64,000 nucleotides of DNA from Thermosynechococcus sp. HN-54 (GTDB taxonomy: Bacteria; Cyanobacteriota; Cyanobacteriia; Thermosynechococcales; Thermosynechococcaceae): positions 1,798,001-1,862,000 of the forward strand of contig NZ_CP098039.1 in NCBI RefSeq assembly GCF_023650955.1. Direction: 5' to 3'. The position numbers and the translations under genes are program-made. The notes under the pieces were generated by a model that was not told where the DNA came from, searched no databases, and saw only the letters and a list, made by a program, of their open reading frames with translations. Positions within the stretch are counted from its first letter, which is position 1, and every line of letters starts with the position of its first letter. Shown in pieces: positions 10,314 through 62,298 of this stretch.

Positions 10314-10319
10314 AGGACG

Positions 10320-11192: not shown

Positions 11193-11267
11193 TCAACTCA
11201 ACTCAATTATTTGAACTCAATTAAAGAAATCTATAACTCAATGCTCTACAGGGAACAACCTTCATCC

Positions 11268-45288: not shown

Positions 45289-45291
45289 GGG

Positions 45292-46701
45292 CTATTTTCC
45301 AATGCAAAAACGGCTAAAGATTTGTTCTAGCACAGACTCAGTCACCTCTTCCCCAGTTAGGGTACCAAGGGCACGAGCGGCAGCATGCAGGTCAATCGTC
45401 CAAAAATCAAGGGGCAGTTGGGCATCAATGGCCACAAGCACATGATTCAGGGATTGATGGACTTGCTCAAGCAGGGCAGCTTGGCGTTGGTTGAGGGCGA
45501 AATCCAAATTGGCTGCTGTCACTCCTTGACCTTGTACCAGATCGAGAATGGCCTGCTCAAGCTGCTCAATTCCCCGCTGACTCAGGGCAGAGAGGAGCAC
45601 TGTGGGAATGGGGGCAATGGGCAGGGGAATATCAGTCACGTCCACTGTTTCGCTGAGCAGATCGGCTTTATTCAGGACAACCAGCACTGACTGAGGAGAG
45701 TGTTGCCGCCGCTGGTGTAGGTTGAGTTGGTCGTAGATTTCCTGATCAGCGGCTGTCCACCCTTGGCTAGCATCAATGACAAAAAGGATGAGATCGGCAG
45801 TGGCGGCGGCTTGGCGCGCTCGCTCGACGCCAATTTGTTCGACAAGGTTATCGGTCTCGCGAATACCTGCGGTATCGAGCACTTGGATTGGAATGCCACC
45901 TACGACCAATTGCGACTCAACAATATCACGGGTGGTGCCGGGTAAATCCGTAACAATGGCGCGATCGCTACGACTCCAAGCATTGAGCAGACTTGACTTA
46001 CCGACATTCGGGCGACCCACAATGGCCACTTTTAGCCCAGTGCGGATCAGTGCTCCCCGTTCTGCCGTGGCCAAAAACGCCTCTACTTGGTGTTGCAACT
46101 GACGAATTTCCTCAGCAATAGCTGCGGGGTCAAGGGGGGGGAGCTCGTCGGTAAAATCGAGTCGCGCCTCAATTTCCACCAAGAGGGATAAACAAGTTTG
46201 GCGAATCTGCTTGAGGGGGCGAGCCAATTTGCCCGTGAGACCCGCTAGTGCTATTTGTGCTGCTGTTGTCGATTGGGCAGCCACCAGTTCAGCCACACTC
46301 TCGGCTTGGGTGAGATCAAGGCGACCGTTGAGAAAGGCACGCAGGGTAAATTCCCCTGGCTCTGCGAGGCGTGCCCCGGCGGCCACACAGAGTTGCAGCA
46401 CGCGCTGGACAGGGATGAGACCACCATGACAGTGAAATTCCACCACATCTTCGCGGGTGTAGGAGCGGGGAGCCAGCATTAAGAGGAGGAGGGCTTCATC
46501 CACCCGTTCCCCAGTTTGCGGGTCGCGGACATAGCCATAGAGGATGCGATGGGATTGCCAGTGTTGCTTGCCGGGAGCTTCAAATAAAGACTGGGCGATC
46601 GCGACTGCTTTGGCGCCTGAGAGACGGACAATGCCGATACTCCCTTGCTGGGGCACAATGGCCGTGGCGATCGCCACAATCGTGTCATGGAGGTGTCGCA
46701 C
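45292..46701 (-). CDS. mnmE: tRNA uridine-5-carboxymethylaminomethyl modification GTPase
   Basis: A 469-residue protein acting with MnmG on wobble uridines of tRNA. The N-terminal folate-binding domain begins [20 protein letters not shown] and contains [15 protein letters not shown]. The inserted G domain has G1 [15 protein letters not shown]2/G3 [11 protein letters not shown] and [11 protein letters not shown], and G4 LNKADL. The conserved C-terminal peptide is FCIGK. The length is normal. It is downstream of petA on the same strand with a small gap. Confidence 0.95.
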
Positions 46702-46722
46702 TAGCGTTGGCGATATGACTCC

Positions 46723-47658
46723 CTAGAAGCTCATCTCCGCTGCTTGGACTTTCTCGACCTGTTTCTTCTTCAGCACAAGCAGAATCTGCGAAAGGGTAAT
46801 GGCGGCAAAGAACACCAACAGCCACTTAATGCGGTTGGGATCCTGAAGGACAATTTCCGTATCCTTTTGACCAAAACCACCCACATTGGGATTGTTGGTG
46901 AGGGCTTCGCCCGCAGTCACCGTTTGGCCTTCACTGACAATGAGGTCAGGGCCAGCAGGAATGGTTTCTGTCACTGCTTCGCCGCTCTCGGGGGTAATCA
47001 CCACCGCAGTACTGCCATCGGGGTTAGCGGTAATACTGGTAATCGTGCCCGCGATCGATGCAGTAAAGACGTTATTGTTGCTCTTTTCACCATTGGGATA
47101 GACTTGGCCGCGACCCCGGTTGCCCCCGGCATGAACGGAATATTTACCGAAGTGGATCGATTTATCCGTGGCAGGGTTGGGGGCGAGGACGGGGAAAACA
47201 ATTTCCTGATACTGCTCACCTGGTAGAGGCCCCACGAGAATAATGTTTTGCTTATCCTCACTGTAGGGCTGGTAGTAAATGCCGCTGGTTTTGGCTTGCA
47301 ACTCCTCGGGAATGCGATCGGGAGGAGCAATTTTGAAGCCCTCGGGCAACATCAGCACTGCCCCGACATTCAGACCGCCCTTAGATCCATCCCCCAGCAC
47401 CTGTTGCACACTGGTGTCGTAGGGAATTTTCACCACAGCTTCAAAGACAGAATCGGGGGTAACGGCTTGGGGCACTTCCACTTGCGTGGGTTTGGCGGCG
47501 AGGTGACAGTTGGCGCACACAATTCGCCCGGTCGCTTCACGGGGACTGTCATAGCCCTGCTGGGCATAGAAAGGATAGGCCTGTGCTTGCGGTGACCAAA
47601 GAAGCACACTGGCGGCAAGGGCGATCGCCAGTGTCAAAGATTTGAAAAAGCGTTTCAT
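46723..47658 (-). CDS. petA: Cytochrome f (apocytochrome f of the b6f complex)
   Basis: A 311-residue thylakoid protein. The signal peptide ([21 protein letters not shown]) ends just before [20 protein letters not shown], whose Tyr is the axial haem ligand. The haem-binding motif is CANCH. The large lumenal domain ends with a single C-terminal membrane helix ([18 protein letters not shown]). It carries electrons from the Rieske protein to plastocyanin or cytochrome c6. ATG 47658 is preceded by AGGGAG; the frame is open to 47691. It lies 20 bp downstream of petC in the classic petCA order. Confidence 0.97.
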
Positions 47659-47678
47659 ACCACTCCCTAAATTTCTTT

Positions 47679-48221
47679 TTATGTCCACCAAGGTTCTTTA
47701 CCCGTGCGGAAATCGGTTTCCGTCCAAGGGGTAAACACCAGTTTGTCATCTTCTGTCACCGTGGCATTCACCAGTGCCAAGGAGAGGGGAGCAGGGCCAC
47801 GCACCACTTTACCCGTGCTGTCGTATTGAGAGCCGTGGCAGGGGCAAATGAACTTGTTTTCGCTGACATTCCAAGGCACCACGCAGCCAAGGTGAGTGCA
47901 GACGGCATTCAAGCCATAATTGGCAATTTGGTGATCCTCAGTAACGATCACGTAGGTGGGATCCCCTTTAATCCCTTGGGCAAGGGAGCGATCGCCCGGC
48001 AGGTGCTTCGTCAGGTAGTCGGAAACCTTAATATCGTTGCCCAATGCATCCTTGGCAACCACACCACCCCCCGTGCCGCCACTAGAGGGGGGAATGAAAT
48101 ACTTGACGACAGGGTACAAAGCGCCCAACGCTGTACCGGTGATGGTACCAAACGTCAGCAGGTTCATAAACTGTCGCCGCCCCATATCGGGCACATCAGA
48201 CATTCCAGAAACTTGAGCCAT
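47679..48221 (-). CDS. petC: Cytochrome b6f complex Rieske iron-sulfur protein
   Basis: A 180-residue thylakoid protein. The N-terminal twin-arginine-like region ([26 protein letters not shown]) is a single anchor helix, followed by a glycine-rich hinge (SSGGTGGGV) and the soluble domain with the [2Fe-2S] ligands in [10 protein letters not shown] and CPCHGSQYD. It takes electrons from plastoquinol to cytochrome f. It is first in the petC-petA operon. A divergent DUF3067 gene lies 114 bp away, so the shared gap probably holds both promoters. Confidence 0.97.
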
Positions 48222-48335
48222 GGTTTACGCTTATTTACTAAGGAATCGAAACGGACAGTCGTAAAATAATTACGTTTGTTAACTATTATCACACTGTCCG
48301 AGCCGTCCCAACCGCAAGGGCTGAAATTCTTGCCA

Positions 48336-48656
48336 ATGCCGACGCCCCTCACTGGTGATGAACTCCATGCCTTACTCCTGCGCAAATGGGGGCGTTCCTT
48401 TGATCTTCAGTTTCGCCGCGTCGGCGATCGCATCTTTTTGCAGGTGATGTGGCGCTACCTCGAGCAGGCCTCCTATCCCGATACGCCTGAAGACTACGCC
48501 GCCCACCTCGGGGCGATCGCCCAGCACCTCAATGACTGGGGCTGTGCCGAACAGGTTTGCACCTTCATTGAGACCACTCGTGAAAAGCCACGCCTTGGCA
48601 AAGCTGTGAATATTCCCCTGAACCTCGGTACTCGTATTATCGAATGGCTAGAGTAG
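48336..48656 (+). CDS. DUF3067 family protein
   Basis: A protein of about 106 residues from ATG 48336 (MPTPLTGDELHALL). It has a conserved core WGRSFDLQFRRVGDRIFLQVMWRYLEQASY, then YAAHLGAIAQHLNDWG and RLGKAVNIPLNL. This is the DUF3067 family found in cyanobacteria and plastid-bearing eukaryotes, function unknown. Its divergent placement next to petC-petA would be compatible with a role around the b6f complex, but that is inference from position only. It is followed by the apcA leader. Confidence 0.8.
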   Translation: MPTPLTGDELHALLLRKWGRSFDLQFRRVGDRIFLQVMWRYLEQASYPDTPEDYAAHLGAIAQHLNDWGCAEQVCTFIETTREKPRLGKAVNIPLNLGTRIIEWLE

Positions 48657-48885
48657 TCGCCCCTAGCAGATTTTTGAAAAAATGTTAAGAATGTTAAAAA
48701 GGATTGCGATGATGTGGGAGATGTCCCCCCTATGCCTGAGAATGTTTGCGGAAGGTTACGTCAGCCCGTCGGGTCAATCGCCGTACCTATCTCTCCTGCA
48801 GGAGTTCGGTGAGTCGTAACATTCCAATGGCAGATGCCACATTATCAAGACCCTTGTTTTACAATTCCAACTTTGGAGGAACTCA
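48657..48885 (+). promoter_or_regulatory. Long leader/promoter region of apcABC
   Basis: The 229-bp gap holds a tandem 9-bp repeat (AATGTTAAG/AATGTTAAA, 48681-48698), a perfect palindrome CTCCTGCAGGAG (48793-48804), and a strong GGAGG ribosome site eight bases before the apcA start. The leader probably controls transcript level or stability; the exact promoter is not resolved. Confidence 0.55.
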
Positions 48886-49371
48886 ATGAGCGTCGTCACG
48901 AAATCGATCGTGAATGCAGATGCCGAGGCCCGTTACCTCAGCCCCGGTGAACTGGATCGCATTAAAAGCTTTGTCAGCACCGGCGAGCGCCGTCTGCGCA
49001 TTGCCCAAACCCTGACCGAAAACCGCGAGCGGATTGTCAAGCAAGCGGGCGATCAACTCTTCCAAAAACGGCCTGATGTGGTCTCCCCCGGTGGCAATGC
49101 CTACGGTGAAGAAATGACCGCCACCTGCCTGCGTGACCTCGACTACTACCTGCGGCTTGTGACCTACGGTATTGTTGCGGGCGATGTCACCCCCATCGAA
49201 GAAATTGGTTTGGTGGGTGTGCGTGAAATGTACAACTCCCTCGGCACCCCCATTCCTGCTGTGGCCGAAGGGATCCGCGCCATGAAGAACGTTGCGTCCT
49301 CGCTGCTGTCTGCAGAAGATGCCGCTGAAGCCGGTTCTTACTTTGACTTCGTGATTGGCGCCATGCAGTAG
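48886..49371 (+). CDS. apcA: Allophycocyanin alpha subunit
   Basis: A 161-residue phycobiliprotein of the phycobilisome core. The chromophore-binding Cys is in [19 protein letters not shown] (about residue 81). The opening [20 protein letters not shown] and the ending [12 protein letters not shown] are family-typical. It absorbs around 650 nm and passes energy toward photosystem II. A strong ribosome site precedes the ATG. It is the first gene of apcABC; apcB follows after 59 bp. Confidence 0.98.
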
Positions 49372-49430
49372 GTCGCCTCAGCATCCTTCATTGATCCATC
49401 ATCCAAATCAGTTTTTGAGGAAAAAGAACT

Positions 49431-49916
49431 ATGCAAGACGCGATTACCGCTGTCATTAATGCCTCTGACGTGCAAGGCAAATACCTCGACACCGCCGCCA
49501 TGGAGAAGCTGAAAGCTTACTTCGCAACTGGCGAACTGCGGGTGCGTGCTGCGACCGTGATCAGCGCTAATGCCGCCAATATTGTCAAAGAAGCAGTGGC
49601 CAAATCTCTGCTCTACTCTGACATCACCCGTCCTGGTGGCAACATGTACACTACCCGTCGCTATGCGGCCTGTATCCGCGACCTCGACTACTACCTGCGC
49701 TATGCCACCTATGCCATGCTGGCTGGGGATCCTTCCATCCTCGATGAGCGAGTGCTCAATGGGTTGAAAGAAACCTACAACTCCTTGGGTGTGCCCATTG
49801 CTGCCACTGTGCAAGCCATCCAAGCCATGAAAGAAGTCACCGCCAGCTTGGTGGGTGCCGATGCCGGCAAAGAAATGGGCATCTACTTTGACTACATCTG
49901 CTCTGGCTTAAGCTAA
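49431..49916 (+). CDS. apcB: Allophycocyanin beta subunit
   Basis: A 161-residue phycobiliprotein that pairs with ApcA to form core trimers. The chromophore Cys is in [20 protein letters not shown], and the Asn position typical of beta subunits (methylated in many phycobiliproteins) lies in [12 protein letters not shown]. The ending [14 protein letters not shown] matches the family. It is preceded by GAGGAAAAAG. An inverted repeat separates it from apcC, perhaps giving lower expression of the linker. Confidence 0.98.
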
Positions 49917-49940
49917 GTACAGCTCTCCAGTCGCACATCT

Positions 49941-50022
49941 GTCTGGGAGTTAGGGGTTAGAGTGTCAGCCTGTCATGGCAATTGTGCTTAAACAGTCTGA
50001 GTCTGGCCTTTAGCTCCCAGAC
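49941..50022 (+). promoter_or_regulatory. Intercistronic inverted repeat between apcB and apcC
   Basis: GTCTGGGAG (49941-49949) is perfectly complementary to CTCCCAGAC (50014-50022), enclosing about 64 bases. In the transcript this can form a stem that protects the abundant apcAB message or attenuates read-through into apcC. No T-run follows, so it is not a simple intrinsic terminator. Confidence 0.55.
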
Positions 50023-50058
50023 GTGTAATCACCCCACACAGATTTGGAGTCCCATCCC

Positions 50059-50262
50059 ATGCGCATGTTCAAAATTACCGCCTGTGTGCCGAGCCAAACC
50101 CGTATTCGCACCCAGCGCGAACTGCAAAACACCTATTTCACAAAACTGGTGCCCTACGAAAACTGGTTCCGCGAGCAACAACGCATCCAAAAAATGGGTG
50201 GCAAAATTGTGAAAGTGGAACTGTTTACGGGTAAGCCAGGCGTCAACACCGGTCTAGCCTAG
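50059..50262 (+). CDS. apcC: Phycobilisome core small linker polypeptide (7.8 kDa, ApcC)
   Basis: A 67-residue basic linker: MRMFKITACVPSQTRIRTQREL, then NTYFTKLVPYENWFREQQRI and VELFTGKPGVNTGLA. It caps allophycocyanin trimers in the core. ATG 50059 gives the canonical N-terminus; an upstream in-frame ATG at 50044 is rejected. It is the last gene of the operon and is followed by a probable terminator. Confidence 0.96.
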   Translation: MRMFKITACVPSQTRIRTQRELQNTYFTKLVPYENWFREQQRIQKMGGKIVKVELFTGKPGVNTGLA

Positions 50263-50330
50263 GTACCCCTCTAAAACTGTTTCCTAGCGATTTTGAGGCT
50301 CCACTGTTGAGATAGTTGATTGGGTGGGTT

Positions 50331-50365
50331 GCTCCCTTCTGAGACAATTATCTGAAGGGTGGAGC
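50331..50365 (+). terminator. Probable terminator after apcABC
   Basis: GCTCCCTTC (50331-50339) pairs with GAAGGG-T-GGAGC (50354-50365), with a small bulge and a loop of about 14 bases, followed by a short T-containing stretch. It lies about 70 bp after apcC and before the convergent CcmK-like gene. Confidence 0.5.
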
Positions 50366-50407
50366 TTTGCTCATTAGAGAAGCTTTAGAGAACTTTTTCC
50401 AAGGCTA

Positions 50408-50743
50408 CTAAACGAGAAAACGCTCCCAACCCTCGCCATATTGGAACCGCATTTTGGGGAAAACAGCCTCTAAATTCTCGTGGGGACGCGGGATCACCGT
50501 TGACGACAGATAGAGCGTTTTTTCCTTGGGACTTTGAGCTGGAATTTTCTTGGCGGCCTCGACACCGGCTGCAACCGCAATTTGCACTTCAGAAACGTCG
50601 CCGCGCACAATAATTGTCAGGCGAGCACCACTGACTACTTCATAGCCCACAAGGGTAACACGCGCCGCTTTCACCATGACATCGGCAACGGCTAAGGCAG
50701 GGGGATGACCCAGTACTTCTACCATCCCAAGGGCAATGGGCAT
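50408..50743 (-). CDS. Solitary CcmK-like carboxysome shell paralogue
   Basis: A 111-residue BMC-domain protein from ATG 50743. [41 protein letters not shown] and [22 protein letters not shown] match CcmK shell hexamers. It differs from the ccmK pair at 62.3-63.0 kb: an insert-like segment (KIPAQSPKEKTLYLSS) before IPRPHENLEAVFP, a missing [10 protein letters not shown] helix, and a different tail (FQYGEGWERFLV). It is presumably a minor hexamer that tunes shell permeability, like the satellite CcmK3/K4-type proteins; which subtype is unclear. It is about 11.5 kb from the main ccm cluster and is flanked by apcABC and tatC. Confidence 0.85.
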   Translation of the reverse strand: MPIALGMVEVLGHPPALAVADVMVKAARVTLVGYEVVSGARLTIIVRGDVSEVQIAVAAGVEAAKKIPAQSPKEKTLYLSSTVIPRPHENLEAVFPKMRFQYGEGWERFLV

Positions 50744-50938
50744 GAAGACCGCTCCTAAACACAAAAATTTGTTAAGGTAATGCCATTCTTGCGATCGCGA
50801 AGGGATGCACTGATTTGGCAACATCAGCATATCATCTCTATTGATAGCCTTGATAAGTTCGAGGGACGATCGCGATAATTCATTTTTATCGCCAAAATCA
50901 TCTTTTCTGATTGAGTCTTTTTTGAGGCTATTGTAAGT

Positions 50939-51757
50939 TTAAGCCTCCGAACGCCCCACCCCCATCAGCTTGGCTAAGCCAATCCCCGTAAAGTAGAGGG
51001 TAAGGAGGGCACCCGCCAACAGTCCTTGGGTAATCGGATCAATGGAGGGGGTCAAGACCGCTGCCACGGCCACCGCAATCATCACGACGTAGCGCCATTG
51101 GCTCAGCATTTGCGGGATCGAGACAATCCCTAGGGCAATGAGCACTAACTGGAGAATGGGGACTTGAAAGGCGAGGCCAGTGGCAAGGAGCAATAGCAAA
51201 ATAAAGTCCACGTAGCGATCGATCGACCACAATTGCTCAACCACATCCGCCCCATAGTTAATGAAAAAGCCGAGGGCTGCGGGTGCCAAGAGGGTATAGG
51301 CAAAGGCCAAACCGGCAATAAAGAGAATAGATGAGCCAAAAAACACCGGTGCCAGCAAGCGTTGCTCACGCCGTGTCAATCCCGGCAGGATAAAACGAAT
51401 GGCTTGGTAGAGGATCATGGGGGTGGCTAAGAGAATACCACTGTAGGCCGCCGCTTTACAGGAGACAAAAAAGTATTCCCCTGGACTGAGTTGCAGGAAC
51501 TTAGCACCATGGGCTGGTTTTTCAAGGAACTGAATGATCCGGCGGACTTGGGTAAAGCAGAGAACAATCGTGACAGCAACAGTGCCGAGGACAACAAAGA
51601 GCCGCTGTCGCAACTCCTCAAGGTGATCCCAGAGGGACATTTCCACTTCATTGGGCAGTTCATCCTCAGGGTCAATGGGGTCGCTCGCCTCAAGGGCGCT
51701 GTCAACAATCGCTGAGGATTCTGGAGCGGGACTATCGATATTGGGCGATCGCGTCAT
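50939..51757 (-). CDS. tatC: Sec-independent protein translocase TatC
   Basis: A protein of about 272 residues. An acidic N-terminal extension is followed by six hydrophobic helices, beginning after MSLWDHLEELRQRLFVVLG, the conserved TatC opening with the Glu needed for twin-arginine signal recognition. It recognises folded twin-arginine precursors, such as the Rieske protein, in the thylakoid/plasma membrane. ATG 51757 is supported by a GGAGG site seven bases upstream; the frame to 51823 is an unsupported extension. Its 5' region abuts an IS200/IS605 end-like hairpin. Confidence 0.95.
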   Translation of the reverse strand: MTRSPNIDSPAPESSAIVDSALEASDPIDPEDELPNEVEMSLWDHLEELRQRLFVVLGTVAVTIVLCFTQVRRIIQFLEKPAHGAKFLQLSPGEYFFVSCKAAAYSGILLATPMILYQAIRFILPGLTRREQRLLAPVFFGSSILFIAGLAFAYTLLAPAALGFFINYGADVVEQLWSIDRYVDFILLLLLATGLAFQVPILQLVLIALGIVSIPQMLSQWRYVVMIAVAVAAVLTPSIDPITQGLLAGALLTLYFTGIGLAKLMGVGRSEA

Positions 51758-51774
51758 CAAAGACCTCCGAGAAA

Positions 51775-51820
51775 CCCTGCACTTTAAGGCAGGGAGGAAT
51801 AGGAGCGGCGGCACCGCCGC
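51775..51820 (+). mobile_element. IS200/IS605-like end hairpins
   Basis: Two adjacent perfect hairpins: CCCTGC (51775-51780)/GCAGGG (51789-51794) with loop ACTTTAAG, and GCGGCGG (51805-51811)/CCGCCGC (51814-51820). The first, followed by AGG, resembles the hairpin found at the right end of IS605-group elements that carry tnpB. They lie in the tatC 5' region, before a tnpB remnant. Confidence 0.5.
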
Positions 51821-51873
51821 CAATATGAAGTCTTCCCTGTTCCCTATAATAATCGGGTTGGGGAGAGCGCAAA

Positions 51874-52152
51874 ATGTATGTCACTCAGAAGAACCAAATA
51901 CGGGGTTTGAGTCGGCAGGAATTTGCTGCCTGACGCGCCCTGTACAGACTGACCAAAAATCTTTACAACGTAGGGCTTTATTCGGTCAGGCAGTTTTTCT
52001 TTGAGACACATCAGCACCTCCGTTATAGAGTTTTCTGAATCCTTGTCCTGCTTTTTACAATGATAAGAGAGCGTAAGGATTATAATGCGTTAGCACTGCC
52101 CCAAGGGGTGGCGACTCAATTCTTAAGTCTTGATCACCTGCACCGACGCTAG
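51874..52152 (+). pseudogene. Degenerate tnpB (IS200/IS605 OrfB) N-terminal remnant
   Basis: In one frame from ATG 51874: MYVTQKNQIRGLSRQEFAA, stop (TGA 51931), RALYRLTKNLYNVGLYSVRQ, FFFETHQHLRY, stop (TGA 52036), and then a recognisable continuation ERKDYNALALPQGVATQFLS to TAG 52150-52152. This matches the N-terminal helical region of TnpB proteins (LTKNLYNVGLYSVRQ and the ALPxxVAxQ motif). About 93 codons remain, without the RuvC nuclease domain. The remnant ends 3 bp before mfd, so the element decayed or was truncated there. It is not expected to be functional. Confidence 0.75.
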
Positions 52153-52155
52153 TCT

Positions 52156-55100
52156 ATGTCCTTAATGGCAATTCCCCGCAGTTGGGGTAAGCTGCCGCTG
52201 ACGGCTGAACTACTCAGCAAATTACAACACCAACGGGAAATTGTCCTCACCGGGATGCCCCGACTAGTGAAGGGCTTGGTGGCCACCACATTGGCGCAGC
52301 AGAGTCAGCAATCGCTGTGTGTGATTACTTCAACCCTAGAGGAGGGGGGACGCTGGGCAGCCCAATTGGAACTCATGGGTTGGGATGCGGTTCTTTTTTA
52401 CCCCACATCAGAGGCATCCCCTTACGACCCCTTTGACTTGGAAGCGGAGATGGTCTGGGGGCAACTGCAAGTTTTAGTTGAGAGCGATCGCCCCAACATG
52501 GCAATTGTCACCACGGAACGGGCACTGCAACCCCATTTACCGCCACCAGAGCAGTTTCGTGCCGCCTGTCTAACCTTACAGGTGGGTCAAGAGCACTCCC
52601 TAGGGGAGGTGGCCACTGCCCTAGCAGCCCTTGGTTATGAGCGGGTTTCTCTAGTAGAAACGGAAGGCCAGTGGAGTCGGCGCGGCGACATTGTGGATAT
52701 TTTCCCCGTTTCGGCGGAGCTACCCGTTCGCTTGCAGTGGTTTGGTGATGAGATTGAGTCGATTCGCGAGTTTGATCCGGCCAGCCAACGCTCCCTACAC
52801 ACCGAGGGCGATCGCCTTGATGCCCTTGAGCAGGTAACCCTGACGCCCATTAGTTTTACCCCCCTGATTGCCCAAGCCCTGCGGGCAGCGGATCACGCCC
52901 ATCTCATTCCAGAGGATCAGGAGGGACTGCGGCGCTATCTGGGGGTGGCTTTTCCGCAGCCGGCTTCGCTCTTGGATTATTTGCCTGCCCAAACCCTCAT
53001 TGCCGTGGATGAGCCGCCTCTTTGTGCTGCCCATGGCGATCGCTGGTATGAGCACAGTCAAGCCTACTGGCAAAGTCTGGAAACGCCGCCTCCCCCCATT
53101 CATCGTCCGTGGTCGGCCACTACCCAAGCCCTCGAGCGGTTTCAACGGGTGCACCTCTATGAACTGGCCAGTGAGGGACTCGGTCTCAATTTGTCAGCAC
53201 GGGCGGTTCCAGCGATTCCCCACCAATTTGGTCGCTTAGCAGCAACCCTACGGGAGGAACGGGACAAGGGTTACACCGTGTGGTTAGTGTCTGCCCAGCC
53301 CAGTCGCTCCGTGGCACTGTTGCAGGAGCATGATTGCCCTGCCCAGTTTGTGCCCAATCCTAAAGACTTTGCCGCTATTGATAAGCTGCAACAGCAGCGG
53401 CTTCCCATTGCTCTCAAGGTCAGTGGCCTAGCGGAAATCAGTGGCTTTATTTTGCCCACCTTCCGCACGGTGCTGGTGAGCGATCGCGAGTTCTTTGGCC
53501 AGCACAACTTGGTCAACCTTGGCTATGTGCGCAAACGCCGCCGCGCTGCCGCCAAACAGGTGGATCTCAACAAGCTCCAGCCGGGGGACTACGTCGTCCA
53601 TCGCCAACACGGTATTGGCCAGTTCCTGCGCCTTGAAACGCTGACGATTAACAATGAAACCCGCGAGTACCTCGCCCTTCAATATGCTGATGGCATTCTC
53701 CGCGTTGCTGCGGATCAACTAAATAGTCTCTCCCGCTACCGTAAGCAAAGCGATGGCGTCCCTCAACTCAATAAGTTAACGGGCAACACTTGGGAGCGTA
53801 CCAAAGCACGGGTGCGCAAAGCCATTAAGAAAGTGGCAGTGGATCTGTTGCAGCTCTACGCTCAACGCGCCCAACAACGGGGATTTGCCTTCCCGCCGGA
53901 TACACCGTGGCAGCAGGAGATGGAGGACTCGTTTCCCTACCAGCCCACCCCAGATCAGCTCAAGGCCATCCAAGAGGTCAAGGCCGATATGGAGAGCGAT
54001 CGCCCCATGGATCGGCTTGTGTGTGGGGATGTCGGCTTTGGCAAAACCGAAGTGGCGATTCGCGCCATCTTTAAGGCCCTCATGGCAGGCAAACAGGTGG
54101 CCGTTCTAGCACCAACCACGATCCTGACGCAGCAGCATTACCACACCCTCAAGGAACGCTTTGCCCCCTATCCCATTCAAGTGGGGTTGCTCAACCGTTT
54201 CCGCAGTGAGAGTGAACGGCAAGACATCCTGCAAAAACTCAAAACCGGCGAAATTGATGTTGTCGTGGGCACCCATCAACTCCTGAGCAAGACTGTCAAA
54301 TTTCGGGATCTAGGGCTGCTGGTGGTGGATGAGGAGCAACGCTTTGGCGTCAATCAAAAGGAGAAAATCAAAGCCCTGAAAACCCAAGTGGATGTCCTCA
54401 CCCTGAGTGCGACACCAATTCCCCGCACCCTCTATATGGCCCTGTCGGGGGTTCGGGAAATGAGCCTGATCACGACACCACCCCCCTCCCGCCGCCCGAT
54501 TCAAACCCACCTTGCTCCCTATGACCCAGAAACGGTGCGCAGTGCGATTCGCCAAGAATTGGATCGGGGGGGGCAAGTCTTCTATGTAGTTCCCCGTGTG
54601 GAAGGAATTGAGGAAGTAGCGGCCAAACTCCAAGGGATGGTGCCCAGTGCCCGCATTCTTATTGCCCATGGCCAGATGCCTGAAGGGGAACTGGAATCGA
54701 CGATGTTGGGGTTTAGCAATGGCGAAGCCGATATTCTCGTGTGTACGACGATCATTGAGTCCGGCTTGGATATTCCCCGCGTCAATACAATTTTGGTGGA
54801 GGATGCGCAGCGGTTTGGTCTAGCCCAACTCTATCAACTGCGGGGACGGGTGGGGCGAGCAGGGATTCAGGCGCATGCGTGGTTGTTTTACCCGCGTCAA
54901 GAGGTACTCACCGATGCGGCACGCCAACGGCTGCGGGCGATTCAGGAGTTTACCCAACTGGGATCGGGCTACCAACTGGCGATGCGGGATATGGAAATCC
55001 GCGGTGTTGGGAATCTATTGGGGGTGGAGCAACACGGTCAACTCGACAGTGTCGGCTTTGATCTGTATGTGGAACTGCTAGAGGAGGCGATCGCCGAAAT

Positions 55101-55584
55101 TCGTGGTCAGGAGATTCCCACCGTTGACGATACCCAAGTGGATCTCAATGTCACTGCCTTTATTCCCGCCGACTATATGCCTGATCTAGAGCAAAAGATG
55201 GCCGCCTACCGCGCGGTGTCCGCAGCAACCACCAAGGAGGAGTTAACGCAATTGGCAGCGGAATGGAGCGATCGCTATGGGGCATTGCCTAAATCGGTTC
55301 AGCAACTGCTGCGGGTTGTCGAACTCAAACAACTGGCACGCCAGTGTGGCATTAGTCGCATTCGTCCCGAAGGCAAGCAGCATGTGATCCTTGAAACGCC
55401 CATGGCCGAACCGGCTTGGAAACTGCTCCTTGAGCAACTGCCCAGTCATCTTCAGAGTCGGTTTGTCTATCAGCAAGGCAAAATCACTGTCCGCGGTCTG
55501 GGGGTACAACCGGTGGAAAAACAACTGGAGCAACTTATTGACTGGTTCAGCCAAATGAAAACAACCGTTGCGACAGCTCCCTAA
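52156..55584 (+). CDS. mfd: Transcription-repair coupling factor Mfd
   Basis: An 1,142-residue ATPase that removes RNA polymerase stalled at DNA damage and recruits UvrA. The N-terminal UvrB-like region is followed by the RNAP-interaction domain ([20 protein letters not shown]) and the translocase domain: Walker [50 protein letters not shown] (DEEQ), [13 protein letters not shown], and helicase motif [17 protein letters not shown]. The C-terminal TRCF domain closes the protein. The start is ATG 52156 or 52165 (MAIPRSWGK). It overlaps rfbD by 4 bp at the 3' end. Confidence 0.96.
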
Positions 55585-56474
55585 AGAACGGATTGGGGAT
55601 CTAGTTGGTCTAAAAGGGGTTCAAGGACGGCTTCCCAAGGGGGTAGAGGAGTCCCCAAAATCGCCTCTAACTTCTCGCAGTTCAGGGTGGAAAAGGCGGG
55701 TCGCTTGGCCGGGGTGGGGTACTCACTACTGGGAATCGCTTCTAGGGTAGCAACCTGACAGCCCTTTGCACGCAGCTGATCAAAAATTTTTGCCGCAAAG
55801 CCATACCAACTGGTGCTGCCGCGGGGGGTGAGGTGATAGAGGCCGCTCAGGGAGGGATCCGCCTGCCAGCGTTGAAGCAGTTGATAGGTGACTTGGGCAA
55901 TGAAGGGGGCAGCCGTGGGCGTACCGATTTGATCGGCAACCACCCGCACGAGAGGACGAGTTTGGGCAAGGCGAGCCATTGTGCGCAAAAAGTTCTTGCC
56001 CCGCAGATCATAGACCCAACTGGTGCGCAAGATCAGGTGGGCAGGGTGATGGGTAGCGATCGCCTGCTCTCCCAGCCACTTACTGTAGCCATAGGCATTG
56101 AGGGGGGCAGTGGCATCGGTTTCCCGATAGGGCAGCGATTGAGTACCAGCAAACACATAGTCGGTGGAGTAGTGAATCAACAGCCCTCCCAACGTAGCCA
56201 TTGTTTTTGCCAAGAGACCGACAGCGGTGCCATTAATCCGCTGCGCCCGTTCCGCTTCCTGTTCGGCTTGATCCACGGCAGTGTAGGCCGCCGCATTGAT
56301 CACCACATCGGGGCGAAGGGTTTTCAGTAAGCGGGGAATGGCCTCTAACTCTTCCAAGTCTAGGGTTACGGCAGTGCCTTGGCGAGCAATGGGAATGACT
56401 TCAACGCCGGGGGGTGCCTGCTGCACCAATTGCCAGCCCACCTGCCCCGTTGCCCCCAAAATGACTAGCCGCAT
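55581..56474 (-). CDS. rfbD: dTDP-4-dehydrorhamnose reductase
   Basis: A 297-residue extended SDR. The N-terminal Rossmann motif is [40 protein letters not shown] and [20 protein letters not shown] provide Thr/Ser, and [14 protein letters not shown] holds the catalytic YxxxK. It performs the last step of dTDP-L-rhamnose synthesis for surface glycans, and may serve the same envelope as the fucosyltransferase island at 14-19 kb. ATG 56474 is supported by AAGGAG; the extension to the GTG at 56483 is less likely. The other rml genes are not in this window. Confidence 0.92.
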
Positions 56475-56539
56475 TTTCCGCACTCCTTGATGATGATGAA
56501 CTGATTGTTAAAATACTTTAAGAGTTTGCGCCACTGCCC

Positions 56540-58483
56540 ATGAACACGGCACTTGTCCCCAGCGATTCGCCGCCCCAAGAGATTGCGATCGCGGCTGAAA
56601 CCCTTCCCAATGATCCGGAGACCTTTCAACCCTACGATCCATACGATCCAGTGGCCATTGATGCTTATTATCGGCAGCGGCCTTTACTGGTCTTGAGTCG
56701 CTGGTTGCGGATTCTCTGGCCAGTCTTTTGGTTGTTCTTTCATCGCTGGTGGGACAAAGTTACAGGCCAAAGCAAACAAAATCAGCGACAGCGGGCGATC
56801 GCCCTGCGCGAAACCTTAACCCGCCTTGGGCCTGCCTATATCAAAGTGGGACAAGCCCTCTCCACCCGTCCTGATCTCCTGCCAGCCGTCTATCTGGAGG
56901 AATTGACCAAGCTTCAGGATCAGTTGCCGCCTTTTCCCAATGAAGTGGCCTTTCAGTTTATTGAGGAGGAACTGGGAGCGCCCCCCAGCGAACTCTTTGC
57001 AGAAATTAGTGACCGGCCGATTGCTGCTGCTTCCCTTGGACAGGTGTATCGGGGGAAACTCCATAGTGGGGAAGAGGTTGCCATCAAAGTGCAGCGCCCC
57101 GGCTTGGCAGAAAGTATTACATTGGACATTTATATTCTGCGCGGCGTGGCCTATTGGGCAAAACGCTTGATCAAAGAGATTCGCAGCGATTTAGTCGCCA
57201 TTCTCGATGAATTTGCCGGTCGCCTCTTTGAGGAAATGGACTATACCCAAGAGGGACGGAATGCCGAACGCTTTGCCCGTCTCTATGGCCACTTGACCGA
57301 TGTCTATATTCCCAAAATCTACTGGAAGTACACGCGGCGGCGAGTGCTCACGATGGAGTGGGTGACGGGGGTCAAGCTCAACCAACCGCAGCAAATTCAG
57401 GCCTTGGGAATTGATCCGCGCTACATGGTGTATGTGGGGGTGCAGTGCTCCCTACGGCAGTTGCTTGAACATGGTTTTTTCCATGCGGATCCGCATCCGG
57501 GAAATCTCTTGGCCATGCCCAGTGGCAAATTGGCCTATCTCGACTTTGGCATGATGAGTGAGATTGCGCCGGAACAGCGCTACGGGCTACTAAATGCGAT
57601 TGTGCATATTGTCAACCGCGAGTATGAAAGCCTGGCCTACGACTACGTAAAATTGGGTTTTCTCTCGCCAGACACAAATCTTGAACCGATTATTCCTGCT
57701 TTGGCCTTGGTGTTTGAGGATGCGTTGGGAGCCAGCGTCTCGGAACTGAATATCCAGCGCATTTTTGATCGCCTATCAGAGGTGATGTACGAATATCCCT
57801 TTCAGGTGCCTGCTTACTACGCTCTGATCGTGCGATCGCTCCTGACCATGGAAGGGATTGCCATGGGCGTTGACCCCAACTTTAAGGTTCTCAGTGCCGC
57901 CTATCCCTATATCGCCAAGCGCCTGTTGACGGATCCGGCACCGGAGCTGCGCACAAGCTTAGCCAATCTTCTCCTCAAGGATGGCCAATTTCGCTGGACA
58001 CGTCTAGAAAATTTGCTGCGCAATGCCCGCGAGAGCCGTGACTATGACTTTAATGTGGTGCTGGAGCAAGCCTTGGATTTTCTCTTTTCCGAGCGGGGGG
58101 CGGATTATCGCGATCGCCTAGCGGATGAAATTGTGAAAAGCCTTGATACTTGGGCGCGCACAACCATGGGGCAATTGAACTTGGTGCAACTGTTACCTTT
58201 AGTCACTCGTCCTGTGCCAGCCACCTCAACGCCAAGTATTATCAATGAACCCAATGCCCTAGAGCATTTGCGCCGTATTTTCACTATCTTGCAGGATACC
58301 CCCGGCTTTGACTGGGGCAAAGTCATCCCTGCGATTCTGCGGATTATTGTGCGGCCAGAGGTACAGCAAATGGGTCAGCGTATTGTCAATGGCCTCCTCC
58401 AACGGGCGATCGCCCGCTTTATTCGGGAGATGTTGCTGGCGGACTCGCAGCCGGCGCTTCAGACGACGAATTTGTCTCGCTAG
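56540..58483 (+). CDS. AarF/ABC1/UbiB family protein-kinase-like protein
   Basis: A 647-residue atypical kinase. The hallmark N-terminal KxGQ motif is in GPAYIKVGQALSTRPDLLPA, the A-rich loop is in IAAASLGQVYRGKLHSGEEVAIKVQRPGL, the catalytic loop is HADPHPGNLLAMPSGKLAYLDFGMM (HxDPHPGN and DFG), and a C-terminal helical region follows. Relatives support quinone or prenyl-lipid metabolism (UbiB/COQ8) and plastoglobule function in plants. The substrate is uncertain. Its 3' end overlaps the convergent TonB-like gene by 65 bp. Confidence 0.92.
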   Translation: MNTALVPSDSPPQEIAIAAETLPNDPETFQPYDPYDPVAIDAYYRQRPLLVLSRWLRILWPVFWLFFHRWWDKVTGQSKQNQRQRAIALRETLTRLGPAYIKVGQALSTRPDLLPAVYLEELTKLQDQLPPFPNEVAFQFIEEELGAPPSELFAEISDRPIAAASLGQVYRGKLHSGEEVAIKVQRPGLAESITLDIYILRGVAYWAKRLIKEIRSDLVAILDEFAGRLFEEMDYTQEGRNAERFARLYGHLTDVYIPKIYWKYTRRRVLTMEWVTGVKLNQPQQIQALGIDPRYMVYVGVQCSLRQLLEHGFFHADPHPGNLLAMPSGKLAYLDFGMMSEIAPEQRYGLLNAIVHIVNREYESLAYDYVKLGFLSPDTNLEPIIPALALVFEDALGASVSELNIQRIFDRLSEVMYEYPFQVPAYYALIVRSLLTMEGIAMGVDPNFKVLSAAYPYIAKRLLTDPAPELRTSLANLLLKDGQFRWTRLENLLRNARESRDYDFNVVLEQALDFLFSERGADYRDRLADEIVKSLDTWARTTMGQLNLVQLLPLVTRPVPATSTPSIINEPNALEHLRRIFTILQDTPGFDWGKVIPAILRIIVRPEVQQMGQRIVNGLLQRAIARFIREMLLADSQPALQTTNLSR

Positions 58484-59576
58484 GTTCGGGGGATACGGGT
58501 GCTGGCGCAGCCTCAGTGGGGGTCGGTGCTGGTGAGGCTTCACTCGTAGGTGATGGTCTAGCCTCTGGTTGGGGTGTTGGCGGTGGCGTTGCCGGTGCGG
58601 GTGTGGTAGGTTGTGGTCTTGGGGTGGGAGTAGGTTGCTGACCGCGGCAGACCTCCGGACGGTACTGAAAAGCAAAGGTGAGCGCTAAGGCTTGATATTG
58701 TCCTGTCGCCTCAAAGGATTGCTGACGTACCCGTTCTAGAGCCGCTTGATCCAAGAGCGCGGAGCCACTGCTGCGAATAATTTGGGGATTGCGGGTGAGT
58801 AAGCCGGTTTCTGGGGCGGCGTTAGCGGGGAGCAATTGACCTTGGGGAGTGACGACAACAGCAACCGTAGTTTCCCCTTGCAGGCGATCGCCACAGGCCT
58901 CTTGGGGATAAAAGTCCGTGATCCGCTGGGCTAAATTCACTTTCAAATTCGCCGTGTTGAGCGTTAACCGCGTTTGATTCAACCAACGGGACAGCGCTGC
59001 CGCTGCTTCACCTTCTCTCGTGGCCACTGGCTCTTCAGGGGTAGCTTCAGGGGTCGGCGTGGGTGAAACCAATTCTGGCGCAACCGCAACATCTTCATTC
59101 GGGGTTGTCGGGATAACGGGCAAGGGGCGGCTGGCCGGGGGCAATTGCCACAGGGGCGGCAAGGGCTGAATCGGGGTGGGATTGGGCAGGGGCGGGAGTT
59201 CCGTCAGCGGCGGCAAAGGCGGCAGGGGCGCCAAGGGGGCAAAGGAGAGAGGGGGTGGCTCAATGCCTGTAAACGGCAGAGGGGGTGGAGTGGTCGTGGC
59301 TAGGGGCGGCAGTTCTGTGGGCAAGAGCGGTTCAATCGAGGGTAAGTCCGCTTCGAGTTCCGGAGCAAGGCTGACCAAAGGCACCAGTTGATCGCTGGCC
59401 AACTCTGGAGGTGTGGGTTCTGGCACCCGCACGAAGGAAAGAATCACAGCGTGCAGCAGGATGGAGCTGGCGATCGCCACTCGTGTTGGCTCCCACACTG
59501 GCCATTGAGAAACCCGTTGCCAAATTGGTTGAATTGGTAGCCGCAGCACCCTAGATCCTCCACACCGTATGAACAT
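58419..59576 (-). CDS. Proline-rich TonB-like periplasmic-spanning protein
   Basis: A 385-residue protein. An N-terminal membrane anchor (VAIASSILLHAVILSFV) is followed by long Pro-rich stretches (residues about 60-165), a globular region resembling a TonB C-terminal fold (TVAVVVTPQGQLLPANAAPE, then SGSALLDQAALERVRQQSF), and a low-complexity Pro/Thr/Ala/Ser tail. The layout suggests a TonB-type energy transducer or a related spanning protein. No exbB, exbD or receptor gene is adjacent. The end overlaps the aarF 3' end; about 20 residues of tail are encoded opposite aarF. It is divergent from the Argonaute gene. Confidence 0.75.
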   Translation of the reverse strand: MFIRCGGSRVLRLPIQPIWQRVSQWPVWEPTRVAIASSILLHAVILSFVRVPEPTPPELASDQLVPLVSLAPELEADLPSIEPLLPTELPPLATTTPPPLPFTGIEPPPLSFAPLAPLPPLPPLTELPPLPNPTPIQPLPPLWQLPPASRPLPVIPTTPNEDVAVAPELVSPTPTPEATPEEPVATREGEAAAALSRWLNQTRLTLNTANLKVNLAQRITDFYPQEACGDRLQGETTVAVVVTPQGQLLPANAAPETGLLTRNPQIIRSSGSALLDQAALERVRQQSFEATGQYQALALTFAFQYRPEVCRGQQPTPTPRPQPTTPAPATPPPTPQPEARPSPTSEASPAPTPTEAAPAPVSPEPSETNSSSEAPAASPPATSPE

Positions 59577-59688: not shown

Positions 59689-61902
59689 ATGTCCAACCAA
59701 TTCCAAGAAGTTGAAGTGATACTCAACCGTTTTTTTGTAAAAACTCTGAGTCAACCAGATCTCACATTTCATGAATACCAATGCCAATTTAATCAAGTGC
59801 CAGAACAAGGTAGTGAGCAAAAAGCTATTTCTAGTATTTGCTACAAACTAGGAGTGCCTGCTGTTCGCCTAGGGAGTCACATTATTACAAGGGAGCCTAT
59901 TGACCCTAGGAGAATGCAAACTCAGGATTGGCAGTTACAGCAAATCGGATGTAGAGAACTTAGCTGTCAAAATGATCATGAAAGACAGGCACTAGAATCC
60001 TTTGAACGAAAAATCCTAGAAATCAAATTAAAGGAAAAATTTAAGAAAACCACGATTGAAAAAGACTATGAATCAGGACTAATTTGGTGGATTCCGGAAA
60101 GGGAAGGTATAGAGAAATTTGATGATGAGTCGGAGATGTGTGGTAATGGATGGGAGATCCATCGAGGCAGAGCAATAGACATTACAATAGATACAGATGG
60201 GCAATTATATTTAGAGATTGATCTTCATCATCGGTTTTATACTCCATTCACCCTTGAATGGTGGCTTAGAAAATATCCTAGTATTCAGATTAAGTATGTG
60301 AGGAATACCTACAAAGATAGGAAGGTATGGATTCTTGAAGACTTTTCGGATAAAAAACCAGATGAAATAGAAATAGAAGGGTTAGGAATAAGTTTAGCAG
60401 AATACCACCGTCAACAGGGAGCACCTGAACAAGACATAAAAGATTCTCGCGTGGTAGTTGTTAGGAAAATTAATGACTATAAAGCTAAGCCACTCTATCA
60501 TTTGTCCCAAAGGCTATCACCAAGTCTAACAATGGAAATGTTGGCGCAAGTCGCTGAACAAGGAGCAGAAAAAAGTAAAATTCAAGACGTATTTGGCTAT
60601 ACAAAGAAAAATCTCAACCTGCGTTTACAAGAATCGCAAGAGACAGCCGAAATTATTTTCAAAAAAATTTATAATCTTAGCGATAAACCAGCACCAGTTA
60701 AAGTTAATGGCTTTGTTATGCCTCGTGCAACACTATTAGCTCGCAATAATAGAGAAGTTAACAAAACAGCTAAAGTTAGCTCCTTTGGCTGCGCCAAGAT
60801 CGGTGAAACACAATTTGGTTGTCTTAATCTTTTTAATAATAAACGTCAATACCCAGAACAAGTACGTAAATGTTTGCTACAAATAGCAAAAAACAGTGAC
60901 ACGCAAATACAAATAGAATCTTATTTTATAAGAAGTGACTATCCGAAAGATGATCTGGCTCAACAAAGGTTCTGGCAGCAGTGGGCTGCTCAAGGAATTA
61001 AAACGGTTTTAGTCGTGATGCCTTGGTCGCCCCATGAGGACAAAACCAAACTACGGATTCAGGCATTAAAGGCGGGGATCGCAACTCAGTTCATGGTGCC
61101 AATCCCCAAGGCTGATGCCTACAAAGCTCTCAACGTTTCCTTGGGACTGTTGTGTAAAGCCAAGTGGCAGCCGGTCTATCTAAAGCCATTGGATAATTCT
61201 GAAGCTGCTGACTTAATTATCGGTTTTGACACAGGCACAAATCGAAAACTGTACTACGGCACCTCTGCTTTTGCAGTCCTAGCGAATGGCCAAAGTTTGG
61301 GTTGGCAGTTACCAGATGTACAACCGGGAGAAACTTTCTCTGGCCGATCAATTTGGCAGGTCGTGTCCAAATTAGTTCTTAAATTCCAAGACAACTGTAA
61401 TTCCTACCCTAAAAAGATCCTCCTGATGCGCGACGGGCTTGTTCAAGAAGGGGAGTTTGAACACACAATCAAAGAGCTGACGAATCAAGGTATCGCTGTA
61501 GATATTCTGAGTGTGCGTAAAAGCGGCTCAGGCAGAATGGGACGTGAGATTCATTCAACTCATAGCGGAGTAACCTATCAGGACGCCGAAGTCGGTACGG
61601 TTATCTTTATCCCTGAAAGGAACGCATTTATTTTACAGACCAGCGAGGGAATCAAGACAAGCCATGGAACGATTGGCAGTGCTAGACCGCTGCACGTTGT
61701 GCGTCATTATGGCAACACTCCCCTAGAGCTACTGGCCTTGCAGACCTATCATTTGACTCAGTTGCATCCTGCCAGTGGGTTTCGCTCTTGCCGACTACCT
61801 TGGGTGCTGCACTTAGCCGATAGAAGTAGCAAAGAGTTTCAGCGGATAGGTCAGATTAGCGTTTTAGAAAAGATCGACCGCGAAAAGTTAATTGCTGTTT
61901 GA
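59689..61902 (+). CDS. ago: Long prokaryotic Argonaute with a complete catalytic tetrad
   Basis: A 737-residue long-type pAgo. N-terminal and linker regions precede a PAZ-like domain (about 180-310, with GISLAEYHRQQGA and YHLSQRLSPSLTMEM), a MID region (about 430-500) and a PIWI domain. The tetrad is D514 (IIGFDTGTN), E548 (QPGETFSGR), D582 (LLMRDGLVQ) and D711 (LHLADRS). The 34- and 34-residue spacings equal those of Thermus TtAgo (478, 512, 546), so DNA-guided cleavage is plausible. The gene is solitary: no helicase, nuclease or other defence gene adjoins it. N-terminal DNA is A+T-rich (15 G+C in 60001-60060) while PIWI-coding DNA is host-like (31 in 61081-61140). Confidence 0.93.
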   Translation: MSNQFQEVEVILNRFFVKTLSQPDLTFHEYQCQFNQVPEQGSEQKAISSICYKLGVPAVRLGSHIITREPIDPRRMQTQDWQLQQIGCRELSCQNDHERQALESFERKILEIKLKEKFKKTTIEKDYESGLIWWIPEREGIEKFDDESEMCGNGWEIHRGRAIDITIDTDGQLYLEIDLHHRFYTPFTLEWWLRKYPSIQIKYVRNTYKDRKVWILEDFSDKKPDEIEIEGLGISLAEYHRQQGAPEQDIKDSRVVVVRKINDYKAKPLYHLSQRLSPSLTMEMLAQVAEQGAEKSKIQDVFGYTKKNLNLRLQESQETAEIIFKKIYNLSDKPAPVKVNGFVMPRATLLARNNREVNKTAKVSSFGCAKIGETQFGCLNLFNNKRQYPEQVRKCLLQIAKNSDTQIQIESYFIRSDYPKDDLAQQRFWQQWAAQGIKTVLVVMPWSPHEDKTKLRIQALKAGIATQFMVPIPKADAYKALNVSLGLLCKAKWQPVYLKPLDNSEAADLIIGFDTGTNRKLYYGTSAFAVLANGQSLGWQLPDVQPGETFSGRSIWQVVSKLVLKFQDNCNSYPKKILLMRDGLVQEGEFEHTIKELTNQGIAVDILSVRKSGSGRMGREIHSTHSGVTYQDAEVGTVIFIPERNAFILQTSEGIKTSHGTIGSARPLHVVRHYGNTPLELLALQTYHLTQLHPASGFRSCRLPWVLHLADRSSKEFQRIGQISVLEKIDREKLIAV

Positions 61903-62298
61903 TGTAATAATAGACTCTAGCCTAGTAAAACTTGGAGCAACATTGAAATACTCTATGTAGGCTGCTCAATTAAAAGCGGAACTGGCTTACTTGGGTGGCT
62001 AGTCTATGAAAAGCAAATACTTTTAGATAAAAGTCTATAGATTCATCATCCTGACCCCTGATCAAAGGGAATGCTAGGGGGTAAAATTAGGTTTAATAAT
62101 ATGAGAAACTAGAAAAGATTATCAATCATTATATTGTCAAAAGAAACCCCTGACCCTATGCTTGTTTAGAGATAAAAAGACGGTGTTAACGTCACGATAA
62201 CAATCGGCTATCCCGTCATTATTTTCTGTAGCGATCGCCCTGATTGCAACTCTAGTTTTTGTACTGCTTACCCTTATTCTAATTAGGAGATCTTACTC
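61903..62298. other. Intergenic region between ago and the ccm cluster
   Basis: A 396-bp A+T-rich gap. It must hold the promoter of ccmK-ccmK-ccmL-ccmM. Seen: two AGTCTAT copies in direct orientation (near 62001 and 62032), a purine-rich TAGGAGA ribosome site just before the first ccmK, and no ORF or RNA gene I recognise. No transposon ends or inverted repeats flanking ago were found. Confidence 0.5.

Follow-up and report, generated by a model that had tools for sequence, protein, structure and literature searches.

A probably active, stand-alone long-A Argonaute of Thermosynechococcus sp. HN-54 and its relatives with integron-cassette-like flanks in cyanobacteria

Introduction

Among the described prokaryotic Argonautes (pAgos), TtAgo of Thermus and the cyanobacterial SeAgo are closest to the protein considered here. 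SeAgo is reported to lower natural transformation and RSF1010 maintenance in Synechococcus elongatus, and the same source already presents active-looking long-A pAgos in Thermosynechococcus (PMC10653904). In Escherichia coli, SeAgo and LrAgo were reported to load guides from replication termination sites (PMC10269773). Here we describe a long-A Argonaute gene (ago) in a stretch of 64,000 nucleotides from Thermosynechococcus sp. HN-54 (contig NZ_CP098039.1, positions 1,798,001 to 1,862,000), which in its full length is called the window below.

Cyanobacterial integrons as such have already been published (PMC2426708). A further source deals with the pAgo-like protein DdmE and, separately, with defence genes in integrons, and the sections of it at hand mention no Argonaute cassette (PMC12409362). 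Our literature search found no study of any Thermosynechococcus Ago protein. The gene of the window is a further member of an already known kind of Argonaute and is not surprising in itself. What is new is that ago is present in all 11 Thermosynechococcus species examined, and that close cousins of it lie in what look like integron cassettes of several cyanobacteria.

Results

Sequence and predicted structure of the Argonaute

The ago gene is located at positions 59689-61902 on the plus strand of the window. Its open reading frame (ORF) begins with ATG, contains no internal stop and encodes 737 aa with the domain order N-PAZ-MID-PIWI. This assignment is based on the ORF, on the PADLOC pAgo model (1011 bits, residues 8-737 covered), on a phmmer comparison with TtAgo (E 6e-73, residues 3-735 covered) and on an AlphaFold2 model. 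An earlier note, made from the letters of this DNA, had proposed a solitary long Argonaute with the intact tetrad D514, E548, D582 and D711 (codons at 61228-61230, 61330-61332, 61432-61434 and 61819-61821, all on the plus strand). The alignment confirmed this: the four residues correspond to D478, E512, D546 and D660 of TtAgo, and a per-residue check found the 34/34 spacing to be correct (TtAgo is numbered as in the Protein Data Bank (PDB); the annotated HB8 protein begins 8 residues later). No catalytic residue is missing in any of the 37 aligned Ago rows, 33 of which have DEDD and four DEDH. The ORF is a full-length, intact long-A Argonaute of the TtAgo/SeAgo branch.

The PAZ, MID and PIWI regions of the earlier note were recovered with unequal support. 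The PAZ domain (residues 191-278, 60259-60522, plus strand) matched Pfam PF18309 (PAZ_3) with 113.5 bits and E 7e-33, well over the cut-off of 27. The MID domain (residues 358-469, 60760-61095, plus strand) reached 22.9 bits with PF22474, which is below the cut-off of 27. A PIWI match was absent from the Pfam scan, and the PIWI part rests on the full-length TtAgo and PADLOC alignments. In TtAgo, R418, K422, Q433 and K457 line the pocket for the 5'-phosphate of the guide. They align with K452, R456 and Q467 in the MID domain and with K490 just past it, and V685 of TtAgo aligns with the C-terminal V737. The pocket differs from that of TtAgo by two conservative exchanges, R418 to K452 and K422 to R456.

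Structure prediction followed by superposition on TtAgo, a check which the earlier note had suggested, was in line with this assignment. The AlphaFold2 model was built from 18 sequences and has a mean confidence (pLDDT) of 83.9, with weak parts at residues 145-152, 517-523 and 696-700. When it was used as a Foldseek query, the 33 best rows were TtAgo chains (first E 2.4e-58). In VIA-align the 20 best rows were TtAgo, with Z from 34.7 to 44.7, and the following row had Z 33.2; the best superposition (Z 44.7) covers 668 residues with a root-mean-square deviation of 6.0 Å. The predicted fold is nearest to TtAgo.

Distribution and turnover in Thermosynechococcus

The distribution of ago was analyzed in 388 genomes of the class, including 11 Thermosynechococcus species (G000 to G010, with G000 being the genome of the window). 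Matches at E ≤ 0.001 were obtained in 40 of the 388 genomes. All 11 Thermosynechococcus species carry ago, each with at least 412 bits. Outside the genus, 29 of 377 genomes match. Of these, 18 reach 600 bits or more; the other 11 do not exceed 76 bits and align solely from approximately residue 455 onwards. Strong relatives (at least 400 bits) are thus found in 11/11 genomes within the genus and in 18/377 outside. The 11 species are related to each other, G006, G008 and G009 are draft metagenome-assembled genomes (MAGs), and the gene of G006 is cut at a contig end. That every sampled species carries ago although its lineage and site change is a real oddity.

In six species ago is located between a gene for a TonB-like protein and ccmK1 (site A), and the other five proteins are 77-82% identical to that of the window. 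All six copies have the intact tetrad, and dN/dS, the ratio of nonsynonymous (dN) to synonymous (dS) divergence, lies between 0.14 and 0.41 in all 15 pairs. The ago of site A is under purifying selection. Its dS to G000 (0.60-0.80) is comparable to the values obtained for ABC1 (0.54-0.68) and the TonB-like gene (0.48-0.78, three pairs), with rfbD somewhat below (0.39-0.58, three pairs). This suggests that ago and its left-hand surroundings were inherited together. The G+C content of its first half (59689-61000 in the window) is 38% in comparison to 55% in the flanks, and it is 37-39% in all six copies. A recent arrival of the window ago, which the low G+C content could suggest, was rejected for the site-A clade, since dS is like that of two left neighbours and the low G+C content is common to all six copies. 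One of the six, in G004 (L068), has the ago protein most divergent of the five from that of the window (77%), although for ABC1, Mfd and the TonB-like protein G004 comes closest to the window among those compared; allele replacement is possible there.

The remaining five species have no complete ago at site A. In G008 and G009 only the last ago codons are left before ccmK1 (tblastn E 0.007 and 0.002, matches carried by their position), and in G006 a weak trace of the 3' end (about 26 bp) was found. The G008 site was considered as a primitive empty site and rejected as such, because it holds this 3' tail. In G002 and G010 there is no ago at site A, and only 216 bp beside ccmK1 are shared. According to the species tree (ABC1 and leuB), G008 groups with G004 (96.8/91), which retains ago, and G006 with G009 (100/100). 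Therefore, at least two losses have occurred at site A.

Each of these five species has an ago at another place. Lineage B is found beside leuB in G006 and G009, lineage C beside recO in G002 and G010, and lineage M in G002, as a second ago, and in G008, where two identical copies are separated by 13.7 kb. In the tree of 37 rows, lineage A (100/100), lineage M (100/99) and B with C (100/100) are separate; no sister of lineage A was resolved, and M is not its supported sister. The agos of lineages B and C (L038/L075, L070, L073, L074) are DEDH, with H for the last catalytic D. With only two independent losses, the impression that a lost ago is always replaced would be a pattern and not a proof. 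The deep forks were resolved neither in the gene tree nor in the species tree. For remnants of an ago of lineage B or C, 9 genomes were searched beside leuB and 8 upstream of recO, where a contig end shortens the stretch in two of them; no match was convincing, the two hits having E 0.15 and 0.62.

As a side observation, in G010 (L074:8910-11963) and G002 (L070:7764-10784) ago is followed on the same strand, after about 50 bp, by the repair gene recO, and this gene order is common to both. No encoded relative was confirmed among the 36 pattern matches which viral contigs gave at the sensitivity used, and a viral origin was rejected. A plasmid origin was rejected: 44 plasmid records match, all with less than 60% identity, and 33 of them are from Thermus.

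Argonautes in probable integron gene cassettes

The ago of lineage M is 63% identical to that of the window and is followed by an attC site in two Thermosynechococcus and three other genomes. The corresponding loci are L069 (G002), L071 and L072 (G008), L076 (G044), L081 and L036. Each of these agos is a single ORF, the distance from its stop codon to attC being 11-22 bp. The site is complete in five of the six loci, L071 having only its first half, and in three loci (L069, L076 and L036) ago is flanked by attC on both sides. In L069, ago (8894-11098) lies between sites at 8741-8821 and 11115-11198, and in L076 (8681-10879) between sites at 8525-8608 and 10896-10979. In L036 (Gloeomargaritales cyanobacterium VI4D9), ago (8094-11566), which is interrupted by about 1.3 kb of other DNA, belongs to an array with nine attC-like sites.

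Between G002, a Thermosynechococcus genome in one contig, and G044, which belongs to another family, the lineage-M ago DNA is 97.1% identical over 2524 bp, and this identity ends in both genomes 100 bp past the stop codon, at the last base of the respective attC-like site. Homology with L081, L072 and L036 stops 0-7 bp from the end of attC in most pairs. The left edge is less clean: the homology of L069 and L076 reaches 216 bp before the gene, beyond the cassette border, and the preceding attC is also shared.

A two-arm scan of 1.145 Mb yielded 61 attC-like sites (repeats between overlapping loci included), while the reversed pattern gave none. From 25 sites, including the five complete ones after lineage-M agos, we built an attC covariance model (R1). 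These five score 97.3-102.7 bits (E ≤ 5e-28), values which are high by construction because the sites helped to build the model. In the drawn attC structure, 93.1% of the cells pair in comparison to 29.9-56.7% when it is slid, with the structure having been drawn from the consensus. Covariation support for the folding was not obtained, since there is too little variation among the 25 sites and values as high as those observed also arise from shuffles. A cassette is expected to begin with bases that pair with the R'' belonging to its own attC and not with that of the next one. Indeed, in 15 cassettes the start matches its own R'' at 38 of 45 variable positions in comparison to 25 of 45 for the downstream border, although the arrays are partly homologous. 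For L069, L076 and L036 the own R'' matches at 3 of 3 positions each and the downstream one at 2, 3 and 1 of 3, so that L076 does not discriminate. Unlike the R1 scores, which are circular by construction, this pairing is an independent sign of cassette organisation. Together, the flanks of lineage M look like those of one-gene integron cassettes, which holds for this sister lineage and not for the gene of the window. No published report of an Argonaute gene cassette was found among open-licence papers, as judged by title or start of the abstract.

An integron integrase above the cut-off of 265 was found only in G231 (467.7 bits). Matches below it were present in G010 (interrupted, 236.6 and 88.9 bits), G088 (partial, 200.8) and G044 (partial, 148.8), but these weak matches say little, because such matches were also obtained in 14 of 14 control genomes. 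The integrase family search gave no match in G002, in G008 or in the genome of the window. A possibly degraded integron was noticed in G010 (L098, G010:C1:1734300-1742178), where three strong attC sites (86.8-94.2 bits) are preceded, at a distance of about 3 kb, by a weak intI-like fragment that contains stops (38 bits); the larger interrupted intI match of this genome is elsewhere, at 1355057.

The two ago copies of G008 (MAG M98_K2018_005; L071:9847-12080 and L072:4111-6344) share 2234 bp at 100% identity on one contig, from 28 bp before ago to 34 bp after it. Both ends of this stretch lie inside the cassette, off its borders, and a clean cassette event is not supported. One copy is located beside a Cmr2_N fragment and the other beside a DNA methylase fragment; the duplicate could be a real copying event or an error of the MAG assembly.

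To look for attC after agos of other lineages, we applied R1 to 52 loci and inspected 27 downstream stretches by eye (that of L049 is not a gene end). Outside lineage M, only the ago of L025 (Chlorogloea CCALA 695) was found to be followed by attC, 25 bp past the stop codon and with 42.4 bits, and GTTATCT is present upstream; diverged types of attC could have escaped this search. Thus, attC-linked agos occur in two branches of the tree.

Genomic neighbourhood of the window gene

The left border of site A is a gene for a proline-rich protein with a TonB_C domain (Pfam PF03544; 58419-59576, minus strand), which is divergent from ago and is the same neighbour in all six site-A genomes. On the right, the border is ccmK1 (BMC domain, PF00936; 62299-62607, plus strand), the first gene of the carboxysome operon. 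The spacer of 396 bp between ago and ccmK1 (61903-62298) contains no attC-like site; about 216 bp of it, in the portion adjoining ccmK1, are shared with G002 and G010 and thus kept in species without ago at this site.

The earlier note had stressed the absence of an adjacent helicase, nuclease or toxin gene. As judged from the sequences, no gene beside ago resembles a partner; yet mfd (52156-55584), a gene with a helicase fold which that statement passes over, is only about 4 kb away, and no evidence ties it to ago. PADLOC was applied to 48 of the 54 window ORFs of at least 100 aa and gave, besides ago, six models at E ≤ 1e-10 (mad3, SspA, DndA, LeoA, PDC-M28B and PbeA). Ten ORFs within 43555-59576 were viewed singly, and their matches cover partial domains only, for example 104 of 578 residues for mad3 or the helicase part of mfd for PbeA. 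In agreement with the note, there is no sign of a defence island in the scanned ORFs, those matching SspA, DndA and PDC-M28B having been left out of the single inspection.

For the comparison of neighbours, ORFs of at least 70 aa from 38 loci of 5-22 kb were compared all against all (E 1e-8); L033 gave no ago ORF. After duplicates and the six site-A loci had been collapsed, 25 Ago contexts were left, and no non-ago family occurred in more than three of them. The stand-alone character suggested by the note is strengthened by this lack of a recurrent neighbour and by the single-gene cassettes of the sister lineage.

The window ago is not an integron cassette now. No R1 match was found in the window at E ≤ 10, and thus none after its ago, nor was an attC detected by R1 at the other five site-A loci (L064-L068). 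By eye, no 5' border of the G/TTRRRY type complementary to R'' was seen in the 160 bp of its left flank. The sole attC found in the host genome (L096:1530-1614, minus strand, corresponding to G000:C1:1863429-1863513; 84.3 bits) is located 3.5 kb downstream of ago, 1.4 kb past the end of the window and on the strand opposite to ago, about 60 bp behind a DUF305 gene and just after the carboxysome genes. The chance of such closeness is about 0.3% by position alone, and as one case noticed post hoc it proves nothing. Genome-wide searches detected no attC in G001, G003, G005 and G007 and one weak match (28.7 bits) elsewhere in G004.

Discussion

It is likely, in our opinion, that the product of the window gene is a stand-alone and catalytically competent member of the TtAgo/SeAgo branch of long-A Argonautes, which would act in defence against incoming DNA, and that the gene is an old resident of its site. 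Competence is suggested by the domain order, the DEDD tetrad, the 5'-phosphate pocket, the C-terminal valine, the fold and the purifying selection, and the protein is probably an active nuclease. By analogy, it would load short 5'-phosphorylated DNA guides from cellular and incoming DNA and cut complementary DNA. As judged from SeAgo, this cutting may lower natural transformation and plasmid maintenance, and a side role at replication termini is conceivable. The protein would work without a neighbouring partner gene. Synteny and remnants suggest that ago was at site A before the split of at least 8 of the 11 species, that it was inherited with its surroundings, and that it was lost at least twice, each of the species concerned carrying another ago.

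Several observations weigh against this interpretation. The protein is only 32% identical to TtAgo over 665 columns, analogy is the basis for the guide type, the cut polarity and the temperature optimum assigned to it, and in the AlphaFold2 model pLDDT is below 50 at residues 517-523 and 696-700, near two catalytic residues. For ccmL, which lies three genes downstream, dS is only 0.05-0.13, far below that of ago, and therefore the case for co-inheritance is based on synteny and on the genes to the left. Further, the ago protein of site A evolves several-fold faster than ABC1 (dN 0.09-0.13 in comparison to 0.02-0.03), as is often the case for defence genes, and relaxed constraint could contribute to this. 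At last, SeAgo is reported to give its own host no protection against ciprofloxacin (PMC10269773), which makes a replication role doubtful in cyanobacteria.

The last point bears on the possibility that the main job of the protein is chromosomal, with guided cutting at replication termini aiding decatenation and defence being a by-product. Such a role would explain why ago is found in all 11 species of the genus examined, and it would fit the reported participation of TtAgo in decatenation, the guides of SeAgo and LrAgo from termini (PMC10269773) and the position of ago before recO in G002 and G010. Nevertheless we regard it as unlikely, since a replication factor would hardly be confined to 18 of 377 cyanobacteria outside the genus, and since three lineages at no fewer than four sites are more like the turnover of defence genes. 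A dependence on partners encoded elsewhere in the genome, such as a Cas4-like nuclease, UvrD or RecJ, is somewhat doubtful. In S. elongatus, loss of cas4, uvrD or recJcy is reported to have helped conjugation or maintenance of RSF1010 (PMC10653904); against this stand the lack of a recurrent neighbour and the cassette form of the sister lineage, which implies work alone or with widespread host factors. Decay of the gene into a functionless relic is hardly credible: two congeners have only its 3' tail at the site and a third a faint trace, but the frame is open, the tetrad is intact in all six site-A copies, and dN/dS does not exceed 0.41.

How the gene reached site A is a separate matter. It may have arrived as an integron cassette, inserted next to ccmK1 at a secondary site of the attG-like type, with a later loss of its attC. 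Another lineage of the same branch lies in attC cassettes, the sole attC of the genome is near, the window ago is as AT-rich as the cassette agos (39-40% G+C), and insertion of cassettes outside attC sites has been described (Loot 2024, via PMC12444791 and PMC11023631). However, non-cassette agos are AT-rich too (L028, L030 and L077), the orphan attC is on the opposite strand and belongs to another gene, the tree does not support M as the sister of A, and neither an attC at any site-A locus nor a border upstream of the window gene was seen. Together with the near absence of attC from the genomes of five congeners, this makes such an entry quite improbable. The cassette finding may offer a route by which a solitary ago can spread; the arrival of the ago of the window is not thereby shown. 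With due caution, one may speculate that there is selection in Thermosynechococcus to hold a catalytic Argonaute and that integrons supply replacements, the ago of the window itself being a fixed import. After loss at site A another lineage would take over, in at least one case (G008) of a cassette type shared with unrelated cyanobacteria.

Returning to the defence Argonaute which we favour, the earlier note had recognised its TtAgo type, its probable activity and the lack of a partner, all of which stand, but it had missed the published Thermosynechococcus pAgos and the in vivo work on SeAgo (PMC10653904). By analogy, the protein is a candidate thermostable DNA-guided nuclease. Since Thermosynechococcus is naturally transformable, knock-outs should be easy to make, and with ago present in each of the 11 species sampled the genus allows the host role of long pAgos to be addressed. 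If true, the integron link would explain by a known mechanism, one-gene cassettes with attC, how solitary pAgos pass between distant bacteria. Argonautes would then be integron cargo, a route of spread for which we found no report in the open-licence literature.

Comparison with known systems

DdmDE of Vibrio cholerae likewise comprises a pAgo-like protein acting against plasmids (PMC12409362). According to this source, DdmE recruits a helicase-nuclease and is located on an island, whereas the Ago of the window has an intact tetrad and no partner was seen. Lineage M resembles the reported integron cassettes with defence genes (Darracq 2025, Kieffer 2025 and Getz 2025, via PMC12409362 and PMC12444791) in being a single ORF with attC. 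It differs from them in its occurrence in Cyanobacteria and in its cargo, an Argonaute gene of 2.2 kb; the ago of the window itself is no cassette. SeAgo belongs to the same cyanobacterial branch and also has DEDD (PMC10653904), but its genomic site and its host are different. The Ago of genome G058 is 60% identical to that of the window. In comparison to TtAgo (PDB 3dlb, 4ncb and 5xow), which is encoded on the plasmid pTT27, the ago of the window is chromosomal, the identity of the proteins is 32%, and the pocket shows the two conservative exchanges. Common to both are the domain order, DEDD with the 34/34 spacing, the pocket, the C-terminal valine and the fold, which for the protein of the window is a predicted one.

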